A DNA stretch of 64,000 bases from Collibacillus ludicampi (lineage in GTDB: Bacteria > Bacillota > Bacilli > Tumebacillales > BOQE01). Positions within the stretch are counted from its first letter, which is position 1. Every line of letters starts with the position of its first letter. Positions 7,770-63,361 of this stretch are shown one piece after another. The notes below the pieces were generated by a model. That model was not told the DNA's origin. It ran no database searches and was given only the letters and a program-made list of their open reading frames with translations. Location of the stretch: assembly GCF_023705585.1 (NCBI RefSeq), contig NZ_BOQE01000001.1, positions 3,566,710 to 3,630,709 on the forward strand, given 5' to 3'. The translations under genes were made by a program, and so were the position numbers.

Positions 7770-7926
7770 TATGCGGACCTATGCTTTACAATCATTTCGG
7801 TGAAGAGCGTCTTGCGGGAATATGCTTCGCTCTTATGCTCTGTGAAGGTCGTCTCGCAAAGATTATGATCAGTTGGTGCGAGACGACCTTCAAAGTCGCT
7901 TACTCTCACAAAGCACTATGCCAGGA
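7770..7926. repeat. Hairpin repeat family, copy A
   Basis: The core is a perfect 15-bp hairpin: 7844-7858 (GAAGGTCGTCTCGCA) with 7877-7891 and an 18-nt loop. To its left lies a degenerate ~42-nt unit ending in TATGCTCTGTGA. To its right lies an inverted unit starting CAAAGTCGCT. The same core and flanking units recur at 61189-61235 (copy C), and a shorter version occurs at 57528 (copy B). The element abuts, and partly reads into, a 5'-truncated hydrolase gene. No protein is encoded. Confidence 0.8.
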
Positions 7927-57463: not shown

Positions 57464-57527
57464 CTTACCCCTTCGTGGATGTAATATACATCTACTTTGA
57501 AACTAGTGTTTGGGTGATTGAAAATGA

Positions 57528-57660
57528 GTGCTTGGGTGGATGGTTCGCTTTGCGCTTGGGTTCGATGAAGGTCGTCCCGCCCGAATTCTTAACAGAAGTT
57601 GCGGAACGACCTTCAACTCACCTCTGCGCTGCAAAGCGAAACCATCCACCCAAAAAGCAC
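57528..57660. repeat. Hairpin repeat family, copy B (compact)
   Basis: The outer arms GTGCTTGGGTGGATGG... (from 57528) and ...CCATCCACCCAAAAAGCAC (to 57660) are inverted, and the inner arms TTCGATGAAGGTCGT and ACGACCTTCAA pair around a ~30-nt centre. The whole element of ~133 nt can fold into one long imperfect hairpin. The left end is the same as that of copy C at 60975. Confidence 0.8.
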
Positions 57661-57754
57661 TTCACTGCTCGTGGTAAACTTAAATTTTTCTTCCCGAAAC
57701 AAGAAACTTTTTTCATTTTCTGGATGTATGTGGCATAAGTTGCTACTGCGTGAC

Positions 57755-57872
57755 GACCTTCAATGTAGCTATTACGCGAAAAGCATATATCCCTTGACGT
57801 CCAGCAGGAGGCGAGGAGACCACCAAAGTCACTGTTTCACTCAAAGTCTCTTTCACGTTTCAAGGGAAGCGA
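57755..57872. repeat. Partial right-arm units of the hairpin repeat family
   Basis: Starting TGACGACCTTCAA near 57762, this stretch matches the right-arm units of copy C (GACGACCTTCAAAGTCGCTA, then CATATACCC and GGAAGCGA) in two degenerate rounds. There is no matching left arm nearby, so it is a rearranged or half copy. Confidence 0.65.
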
Positions 57873-59911: not shown

Positions 59912-60946
59912 TCATTGTTGCTTCAATTGTAACATGCGTTCGGTATTCGGCTTCTCGACGACACCTTTTTCTGTAATGATTGCGGTGATTAATTCATGGG
60001 GTGTGACATCAAATGCTGGATGCAATGCGGTTACCCCTTGTGGTATGATTCTTTTTCCCGCGATCATCGCTACTTCCTCGGCAGATCGTTCCTCAATCAC
60101 AATCTGATCCCCAGATGCCAGTCCAAAATCGATCGTTGATAACGGAGCGGCCACGTAAAAGGGTATGTCATGATAATTTGCCAGAACGGCGAGAGAATAA
60201 GTTCCAATCTTGTTCGCCGTGTCCCCGTTTGCTGTAATGCGGTCGGCTCCAACGATGACAAGATCTATATTTCCAGTCTTCATGAGATGTCCCGCCATGG
60301 AGTCGGTGATCACAGTCACAGGGATACCGTCATGTGACAACTCAAACGCTGTGAGACGCGCACCTTGGAGGTAGGGACGGGTTTCATCCGCATATACATG
60401 TACGCTTTTTCCGGCTGCATGTGCCGTACGTACGACTCCTAGGGCTGTACCGAATTCGACAGTTGCCAGCGAACCTGTATTACAATGTGTCAGAATGCGC
60501 GCATGATCCGGAACATAGGGAAGCCCGTTACGCCCTATGGATTGATTGATGCGCACATCTTCTTCAGCGATCGCTTCCGCTTCTTTTACCAATTGTTCAA
60601 CAATCTTTGGAACGTCGTCATTCTCGTGTCTCGAGAGGACAGATCGCATCCGGTTGATCGCCCAAAATAAATTGACGGCGGTGGGACGCGTTTTCGCTAG
60701 CCGATCGCATACTTTTTCGATCGCGGATTGAAATTCCTGTTTGTTTTTTTCAACGTTTGCGAGCGCACCGATGGCTACTCCGTAAGCAGCAGTGGCACCT
60801 ATGGCGGGTGCACCGCGTACTTTCATCTTTTCGATCGCTTCAGCCACATCTTCTACCGTTTTGCAGGTGATCCAAGTGAGGTCTTCAGGCAACCGAAGCT
60901 GGTCAATGAGTAAAAGTTGTTTCCCATCCCATCGAATCGGGCGCAT
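59912..60946 (-). CDS. mtnA: S-methyl-5-thioribose-1-phosphate isomerase
   Basis: This 344-residue isomerase converts methylthioribose-1-P (or 5-deoxyribose-1-P) to the ribulose form. Family marks are KMKVRGAPAIGATAAYGVAI, KTRPTAVNLFWAINRM, the catalytic Cys in LTHCNTGSLATVEFG, and the Asp in VIVGADRITANGDTANKIGT. eIF2B-alpha relatives lack this combination. The ATG follows GGAAGGAAGG. Its stop overlaps the aldolase ATG. Upstream, repeat copy C separates it from mtnP, which encodes the enzyme supplying its substrate. Confidence 0.93.
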   Translation of the reverse strand: MRPIRWDGKQLLLIDQLRLPEDLTWITCKTVEDVAEAIEKMKVRGAPAIGATAAYGVAIGALANVEKNKQEFQSAIEKVCDRLAKTRPTAVNLFWAINRMRSVLSRHENDDVPKIVEQLVKEAEAIAEEDVRINQSIGRNGLPYVPDHARILTHCNTGSLATVEFGTALGVVRTAHAAGKSVHVYADETRPYLQGARLTAFELSHDGIPVTVITDSMAGHLMKTGNIDLVIVGADRITANGDTANKIGTYSLAVLANYHDIPFYVAAPLSTIDFGLASGDQIVIEERSAEEVAMIAGKRIIPQGVTALHPAFDVTPHELITAIITEKGVVEKPNTERMLQLKQQ

Positions 60947-60974
60947 CGTTAACCTTCCTTCCTATTTTAAAAAT

Positions 60975-61410
60975 GAGTGCTTGGGTGGATGTATCGTTTT
61001 GCGCTAGGGTTCGATGAAGGTCGTCATTGCGGGCATATGCTTGGCGTTCATGCTCCGTGGAGGTCGTTTCGGCGTGTATATGCATTGCGCTTATGCTCCG
61101 TGGAGGTCGTTTCGGCGTGTATATGCATTGCGCTTATGCTCCGTGAAGATCGTTTCGGCGGGTATATGCATTGCGCTTATGCTCCGTGAAGGTCGTCTCG
61201 CATGGAATCATAATCATATGTTGCGAGACGACCTTCAAAGTCGCTATTACGCGCAATGCATATACCCTTTTACATCCGAAAGGAAGCGAGACGACCTCCA
61301 AAGTCGCTGTTTCACGCCAAGCATATGCCCTCTTAACAGCTTAAAGGAAGCGCAACAACCTTCCACTCACATCTGCGCTGCAAGCGATACACCCACCCAA
61401 AAGACACTCC
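60975..61410. repeat. Hairpin repeat family, copy C (full, with tandem 43-nt units)
   Basis: The ~436-nt element is an imperfect giant inverted repeat. The outer left end GAGTGCTTGGGTGGATG faces CACCCACCCAAAAGACAC at the right. Four tandem 43-nt units fill the left arm (61018-61060, 61061-61103, 61104-61146, 61147-61189), each ending near TATGCTCCGTG; units 2 and 3 are almost identical. The core is a perfect 14-bp hairpin (61189-61202 with 61222-61235, AAGGTCGTCTCGCA). The right arm repeats CAAAGTCGCT...CATAT...GGAAGCG twice in inverse. It lies between mtnP and mtnA. No ORF in it looks real. Confidence 0.88.
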
Positions 61411-61523
61411 GGTAATTTTGGAAGCCACAACTTCTCCTTCCGCAACAGAAACTTTTTACACTCTGATGAGACTACTTAAGGCACGTGTGGCTATTTTGAA
61501 AAACTTGGGGTTATACAATCGTC

Positions 61524-62312
61524 CTACAAGGTCCCCAGTTCATCCAGCGCATGTGGACACGCGCATGTGCGCTCATGGTGACCGTTTTCGATCGTTAAGA
61601 GAAAGAGTTTTCGAACGGTCTCAATCCGGTCTTTCATGGTATCGATCACTTCCTGATGAGTGAGTGCATGCGGACTGATCCCCGAACAGTAGTTGGTCAC
61701 GATACCGACCGTCGCGTAACAAAATCGGGCTTCTTTCGCTAAGATCACCTCGGGTACGGATGTCATCCCAACCACGTCCCCTCCCCAAGAGGCGTATGTG
61801 CGAATCTCGGCACGTGTCTCAAAACGCGGGCCTTCCGTACAGACATATACGCCGCCGTCTTGAACAAGAATCCCGTTCTCCCTGGCCACTTCGACCAATT
61901 GTCGTCGCAAACGATTGCAATAAGGATCGGTCATATCGATATGTATGACCCCTTCTTCTCCTTCAAAAAACGTTTGCACGCGATTTTTCGTCATATCGAT
62001 AAAATCATCAACGATCACCAGACTACCAGGGGGCAGTTCCCGCTTCAGTGAACCTACAGCAGCCGTCGCCAGAACCTGCTGCACCCCCAACTCTTGCAAC
62101 GCACGGATGTTCGCGCGAAAGTTGATTTTGTGTGGCGGTACAGAATGTTTATAACCGTGACGTGGCAGGAAAACAATCCGTTTCCCTTTGTATTCGCCTA
62201 TGGTAACTTCTACAGCACCGAAAGATGTATGTATCATTTGACGAGTGGAATGATCCAGCAACGCCGGATCGTAAACGCCAGTCCCCCCGATTATCGCGAA
62301 TTCTGCTTGCAT
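61524..62312 (-). CDS. mtnP: S-methyl-5'-thioadenosine phosphorylase
   Basis: This 262-residue phosphorylase splits MTA into adenine and methylthioribose-1-P. The MTAP-type motifs are EFAIIGGTGVYDPALL, FLPRHGYKHSVPPHKIN, TAAVGSLKRELPPGSLVIVD and VTNYCSGISPHALTHQEV; the SGISPH...HQEV region distinguishes it from purine nucleoside phosphorylase. The ATG has AAAGGAGGAG upstream. It lies 70 nt after the LigD-type gene on the same strand and, across repeat copy C, feeds MtnA. The usual Bacillus route uses MtnN plus MtnK; here the phosphorylase does it in one step. Confidence 0.93.
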   Translation of the reverse strand: MQAEFAIIGGTGVYDPALLDHSTRQMIHTSFGAVEVTIGEYKGKRIVFLPRHGYKHSVPPHKINFRANIRALQELGVQQVLATAAVGSLKRELPPGSLVIVDDFIDMTKNRVQTFFEGEEGVIHIDMTDPYCNRLRRQLVEVARENGILVQDGGVYVCTEGPRFETRAEIRTYASWGGDVVGMTSVPEVILAKEARFCYATVGIVTNYCSGISPHALTHQEVIDTMKDRIETVRKLFLLTIENGHHERTCACPHALDELGTL

Positions 62313-62381: not shown

Positions 62382-63302
62382 TCAAGATGAGGAATGTTGG
62401 CGTATCAATTGTAGCAACTCTCCAATGTCTACTCCGGGACGAGTCAGAGGTGCGAACAAATCGCCCAATGTATTCACGCGTGATACCATGTTTACAATCG
62501 TAAAATCTTCGGGTACAACCCCTTTTTGCAGTTCCTCCCAAGTGAGAGGGGCGGATACACAAGCCTTTGCAACCGCTCTGGCCGAATACGGAGCGATCAA
62601 CGTTTTGTTCGGCGCATGTTGCAGGTAGTCGATATACACTTTGTCCCCGCGATCCTTCACCATCCGCTCAACTGTAATGATTTTCGGGTATTTTTCTGCC
62701 ATAAACCGACCGATGAAGGAAGTGATCATCCGGGTGTCTTCATATGAAAAACCTAGAGCGAGCGGAATGAATATTTGGATACCGGATGCGCCTGAGGTTT
62801 TCGGATAAGAAGGGAGCCCCAGATCGTCCAAAACCTCCTTCAAACGTAACGCGACTTCTCTTACCTTTTCAAATCCGGGAACAGACGGATCCAAATCAAA
62901 CGCGATGTTCGTCGGACTATTCGGCGCTTGGATTTGGGAAAACCACGGATGAAGCTCAATACAAGCATGATTGGCCAACCAGATGAGAGTGCTCGTATCA
63001 TTCGCTAACATGTAATGAATGGTTCGTTTGCTCTCCTCCGACCAAACAGGATACGTATTGACCCATTTCGGCGTTTCTTTCGGCGCGTTCTTCTGATAAA
63101 ACGAGTGCGCGTGAATCCCGTCCGGAAAACGGATCACTGTCAACGGCCGATTTTTCAAATGAGGAATTAAGTAAGAAGCCATTTGAATGATGTACTGGAT
63201 ATATTCCGCTTTGGTAATCCCCGCTTCCGGCCAAAGCACCTTATCAAGGTTCGTAACGCGTACAGGATGTTCACAGATAAGCGTATTCCCATCAGCCGTC
63301 AT
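62382..63302 (-). CDS. LigD-type DNA primase-polymerase (NHEJ polymerase domain)
   Basis: This 306-residue stand-alone polymerase domain of the archaeo-eukaryotic primase fold fills gaps in non-homologous end joining. It has VRVTNLDKVLWPEAGITKAE, RPLTVIRFPDGI, FYQKNAP, the metal-binding AFDLDPSVPGF, TSGASGIQIFIPL and YSARAVAKACVSAPLTWEEL. No ligase domain, Ku or phosphoesterase is attached or nearby. The start is the ATG at 63302 after GAGGAGGG; the frame extends eight codons upstream without a site. It is divergent from lexA across a shared 150-nt region with an SOS box. Confidence 0.92.
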   Translation of the reverse strand: MTADGNTLICEHPVRVTNLDKVLWPEAGITKAEYIQYIIQMASYLIPHLKNRPLTVIRFPDGIHAHSFYQKNAPKETPKWVNTYPVWSEESKRTIHYMLANDTSTLIWLANHACIELHPWFSQIQAPNSPTNIAFDLDPSVPGFEKVREVALRLKEVLDDLGLPSYPKTSGASGIQIFIPLALGFSYEDTRMITSFIGRFMAEKYPKIITVERMVKDRGDKVYIDYLQHAPNKTLIAPYSARAVAKACVSAPLTWEELQKGVVPEDFTIVNMVSRVNTLGDLFAPLTRPGVDIGELLQLIRQHSSS

Positions 63303-63361
63303 AAGAACCCTCCTCAAACTATTCATTCAGTAGAGTTCCCAGACTGGAGAATTTCCACATG

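Follow-up and report, generated by a model that had tools for sequence, protein, structure and literature searches.

A layered DNA hairpin between mtnP and mtnA in Collibacillus ludicampi probably belongs to a lineage-specific family of non-autonomous mobile elements

Bacterial palindromic repeats are usually small, and to our knowledge it is only for REPs that the mobilising enzymes are well known. REPs measure 20-40 bp, and most GTAG REP families have few or no head-to-tail dimers (PMC3733652, PMC3116915, PMC2817692); REPtrons can be lost (PMC3733652). The BOX elements of Streptococcus pneumoniae span 67-637 bp and have terminal inverted repeats and target duplications (PMC3049150). An initial literature search for repeats such as those described here returned nothing relevant. 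The family reported below is large, layered and oriented with respect to replication, and it resides in a genome that lacks the expected enzyme; its approximately 150 natural variants offer material for studying the survival of long palindromes, symmetric growth and the mobilising enzyme.

One copy of the family lies between the mtnP-like and mtnA-like genes of C. ludicampi, in the 64,000-nucleotide stretch of DNA that was analysed (the window). Its palindromic part, at 60975-61410, has inverted outer ends, in which 60981-60999 pairs with 61382-61400 (19 nt, 89%); pairing and profiles delimit an outer left arm of type a at 60981-61030 and an outer right arm, also of type a, at 61349-61410 (both + strand). 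The left arm continues with four tandem 43-nt units (61031-61202, + strand; spacing 43, 43, 43), and the right arm contains two units of 63 nt, at 61223-61285 and 61286-61348 (61223-61348, + strand; spacing 63). The core hairpin (61187-61237) consists of a perfect 16-bp stem, 61187-61202 with 61222-61237, and a 19-nt loop. A sequence-only reading of this DNA had described the inverted ends, the four left units and inverse units in the right arm, all of which are borne out; it was also right that the core stem is perfect, but had given its length as 14 bp. Folding likewise upholds the hairpin: as single-stranded DNA the element reaches -116 kcal/mol, versus -73 +/- 4.6 kcal/mol for sequences shuffled by dinucleotide (z -9.4), none of which, out of 100, folded as well.

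The extent of 436 nt given in the same reading proved too short, although the sequence within it is as described. The ends defined by the family widen the element to approximately 60962-61503 and include a 3′ tail (approximately 61447-61495) that lies beyond 60975-61410. The complete element, from left end to tail (60962-61503, + strand), is flanked by CTATTTTA and CTATTTTG repeats; the left-end profile has its first base at 60970 and the tail profile its last base at 61496, and the element length is 527 nt. At the left boundary is the motif CTATTTTA-AAAA (60962-60973, + strand), for which the logo of 116 left flanks gives the family consensus CTAYCTTG-AAAA, and at the right boundary, located by the tail profile and the flank logo, is CTATTTTG-AAAAA (61491-61503, + strand). 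The tail module, placed by its profile at 61447-61495 (+ strand), carries a GCCGC-TT-GCGGC hairpin in most copies, which is degenerate in this one.

The element contains no gene, as had been noted, and it divides a conserved methionine-salvage gene set just upstream of a start codon. To its left is the mtnA-like gene of the IF-2B family (59912-60946, - strand; Pfam PF01008), whose start lies about 16 nt away from the left end of the element, and to its right is the mtnP-like gene of the phosphorylase superfamily (61524-62312, - strand; Pfam PF01048). Relatives for comparison were 13 genomes of the same order, none of the same genus or family. In those having both genes, mtnP and mtnA are adjacent at a spacing of about 20-97 nt, whereas the gap here is about 580 nt; the copy is therefore an insertion, and the earlier view that it interrupts a metabolic set holds. 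None of the 13 genomes is near enough to provide a base-exact empty site. Because the insertion lies upstream of the mtnA start codon, any effect on mtnA expression is directly testable. A LigD primase-polymerase-type gene (62382-63326) stands alone beside mtnP.

The possibility that the element is unique in the genome, raised in the sequence-only reading, was not borne out. The core hairpin is present in 97 exact copies, versus 0 for a reversed-pattern control. Profiles of the left end, arms, core and tail identified 117 complete copies, which amount to 33 kb; in all, at least 147 copies are distinct in the 433 kb that were covered around candidate sites (with 11 of the 97 exact cores outside at last count). 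With at most 40 candidates scored per query, this number is a lower bound, and the sample is tilted towards copies whose core or tail is good. Among the matches listed, all family copies are on the chromosomal contig. The window holds two further copies: a compact type a hairpin with right-arm remnants, which has surE on one side and an amidohydrolase gene on the other, at the far end of the gene set (57521-57846, + strand), and a decayed copy consisting of the core and one layer (7814-7918, + strand). Elsewhere, at least five copies occur inside about 8 kb at C1:1214759-1222500. A tail-like fragment at C1:3714283 was considered as the end of another element and rejected, since it flanks ordinary genes only.

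Outside this genome, a family search of the 13 other same-order genomes found no copy (best E 0.14). Plasmid and phage records contained no family match either, and a plasmid or phage origin was rejected for that reason; together with the Rfam result given below, this agrees with the earlier statement that the structure matches no familiar IS, CRISPR array or REP element. A single match to the core pattern was found in one viral contig, and the type a end in no viral contig. When the GTDB species set was scanned with the core, 11 single matches were obtained, mostly in unrelated taxa; most likely they arose by chance or belong to unrelated hairpins. In three Bacillaceae records that are apparently related (Bacillaceae bacterium JMAK1, Geomicrobium), there is one short hairpin each, GGTCGTCTCGC-N8-GCGAGACGACC, which is probably unrelated and conserved within that Bacillaceae group. 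We conclude that the mtnP-mtnA hairpin is probably a member of a family of mobile DNA hairpins that is lineage-specific, non-autonomous and MITE/REP-like in character.

Complete copies run from CTAYCTTG-AAAA at the left to a tail with the consensus GATGGCGCCGCTTGCGGCATGGGGGGCTAYC, and the right end of the family is formed by the small GCCGC/GCGGC hairpin and GGCTAYC, followed by a weak TTGAAAA. Whether the boundaries are conserved had been posed as a question, and they are: the ends are common to the copies, the left boundary is sharp, with conservation in the logo of 116 left flanks stopping upstream of CTA, and the right flanks show a weak 9-nt preference, YYTTGAAAA, which vanishes beyond. 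The long inverted arms are subterminal, while the extreme ends are direct, with CTAYCTTG on both sides and the tail outside the palindrome. A circular or excised element would show the junction GGCTAYC-TTGAAAATG.

Adjacent copies are usually arranged head-to-tail, and such copies share the same junction. Four type b copies that are 97-99% identical each lie immediately upstream of a different type a copy; the left CTACCTTG is constant and the right junctions vary. In our reading, each of these pairs arose when an element inserted independently at the left edge of a resident one, such that the left motif is borne by the element and the right motif comes from the target. If the element carries the left motif, however, one would expect this motif to be better conserved across all copies than it is. 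Identity between left and right flanks does not rise above permutation (p ~0.07), and hence gives no support for an exact target duplication. It is very improbable that the family spread only through ordinary duplication, recombination and gene conversion, without transposition. Head-to-tail copies and changes in unit number are indeed typical of recombination, but such a history does not sit well with precise ends at more than 100 unrelated sites, with near-identical copies that have different flanks, or with the insertion into the mtnP-mtnA operon.

The family has two outer layers, type a (TTGGGTGGATGTATCGC) and type b (TTTGGCGGGCGTATGC), of which type b has GTAG at its left end and type a does not. 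The copies fall into length classes of 182 nt (b), 229 nt (a), 288 nt (b plus one layer), and 335 and 441 nt (a plus one or two layers), and the length step of 106 nt is made up of 43 nt on the left and 63 nt on the right. Layers number one to five on the left and one to three on the right, and in 92 of 116 copies both arms have the same number, against a mean of 45 and a maximum of 62 on permutation, which indicates that the arms grow mostly in paired steps of 43 plus 63 nt. The contiguity of the inner hairpin would allow whole layers to be gained or lost through exchange or re-copying between elements. The mtnP-mtnA copy has five left and three right layers, with two extra left units. Tandem growth in one arm, as suggested in the sequence-only reading, thus describes this copy and not the family, where one-sided growth is the exception. 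Such one-sided changes resemble the usual outcome of tandem-repeat slippage or of unequal recombination; slippage within a cruciform, which that reading had proposed, may account for the extra units.

In all five size classes, changes that preserve pairing on both sides of a pair exceed those in column shuffles; because column shuffles keep relatedness, and the arms could also stay matched if copies swap the contiguous inner hairpin, the excess is to be read as pairing that is maintained, whatever the cause. In the minority columns, G.T (136) and A.C (151) are about equally frequent, so neither strand's RNA is favoured, and the hairpin looks to be kept as DNA rather than as one RNA. This balance bears on a different reading of the family, namely a structured RNA element (a leader, stabiliser or small RNA) selected in the transcripts of neighbouring genes. 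Covarying arms would be expected of such an RNA, and the copies are antisense to their neighbours in 57 cases and sense in 14 (the genes around copies being simple open-frame calls); a gene start often lies 11-51 nt from the left end. We nevertheless consider an RNA element unlikely, not only from the G.T and A.C counts but also because the number of units varies freely and the orientation bias persists between divergent genes. In addition, a consensus scan of the element for promoters and terminators found none, and Rfam covariance models gave no gathering match, with only chance-level matches of E up to 5. A group II intron or other Rfam RNA was rejected on the latter result.

The orientation bias appears to relate to replication. 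Judged by GC skew, replication starts near 1.5 Mb and terminates near 3.6 Mb, and the element strand is opposed to the fork in 86 of 117 copies (86:31, p 4e-7). Fork and gene orientation are partly confounded; the copies between divergent genes, where the element opposes the fork in 19 of 22 cases (19:3), favour replication. Fork-oriented copies that are spread over the chromosome, with pairing maintained at the DNA level, could also represent a chromosome feature retained for the host, such as a gyrase, nucleoid-protein or fork-related site as proposed for REP/BIME, for which mobility is past or secondary. We regard this as distinctly unlikely, given that the family is restricted to the lineage and absent from same-order genomes, that copies occur within an operon that is contiguous in relatives, and that regular spacing is not seen. 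A host function is not required for explaining the family.

As mobile hairpins, the copies can be compared with three kinds of described element. Like BOX, and judged by architecture only, they are dispersed intergenic stem-loops in a Gram-positive-type genome, modular in having ends and a variable number of middle units, and of overlapping size (PMC3049150); unlike BOX, they carry units in matched layers in both arms and have a tail hairpin of their own, and a target duplication was not found. With the REP/BIME/REPIN elements moved by RAYT (Y1), they share a high copy number, extragenic location, palindromic structure, clustering and probable mobilisation in trans, as well as the GTAG at the type b left end. 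However, the family is a layered hairpin of 180-530 nt in a genome without Y1, and head-to-tail is its usual dimer. Membership in REP/RAYT was rejected, since the genome has no PF01797 gene and the hairpins are not 20-40 bp palindromes with an unpaired GTAG or CGTC tag.

The resemblance to IS200/IS605 and its non-autonomous derivatives lies in the subterminal hairpins, the lack of target duplication and the replication-linked orientation (PMC6006769). Unlike those elements, the family is in a genome without TnpA and has no demonstrated guide pairing. GTAG/TAG and GATGG could pair with CTAYC, but the target motif is the same for types a and b, so that covariation lends no support to IS605-like guide-target pairing. 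The left hairpin of the family far exceeds any that we know of from IS200/IS605. In common with MITEs, the family comprises dispersed non-coding copies with common ends, 117 of them with both ends, but a target site duplication is not supported. Since a resident RAYT/Y1, REP size and target duplication, the defining features tested, are all absent, we place the family as a variant of dispersed non-autonomous palindromic elements, outside the BOX, REP and IS200/IS605 families.

How the elements move can be outlined only provisionally. A trans-acting enzyme would recognise both ends and insert the element beside a CTANN-TTGAAAA-like site; single-stranded DNA at the replication fork would probably be used, where the nested palindrome can fold. 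A search of the genome for Y1 transposases (PF01797) gave 0 matches, with positive controls. Beyond Y1, the survey covered the loci of tyrosine recombinases, serine recombinases and IS110, and none of them carries family ends; a single TnpB gene is present, on contig C2. A more speculative possibility, which we hold only tentatively, is that the family represents a new class of single-stranded-DNA hairpin transposon with an unrecognised enzyme, in which the palindrome itself is the substrate and grows in paired layers while mobility is kept.

Two features of the junctions with genes may be added. In many copies the left end adjoins the ribosome-binding site of the left neighbour, which reads CCTCC on the element strand, and lies 11-51 nt from the start of that gene; mtnA is such a case. 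In about 12 copies genome-wide, the stop codon of the right neighbour is inside the element terminus (TAG being the complement of CTA), and insertion may therefore replace or supply stop codons.
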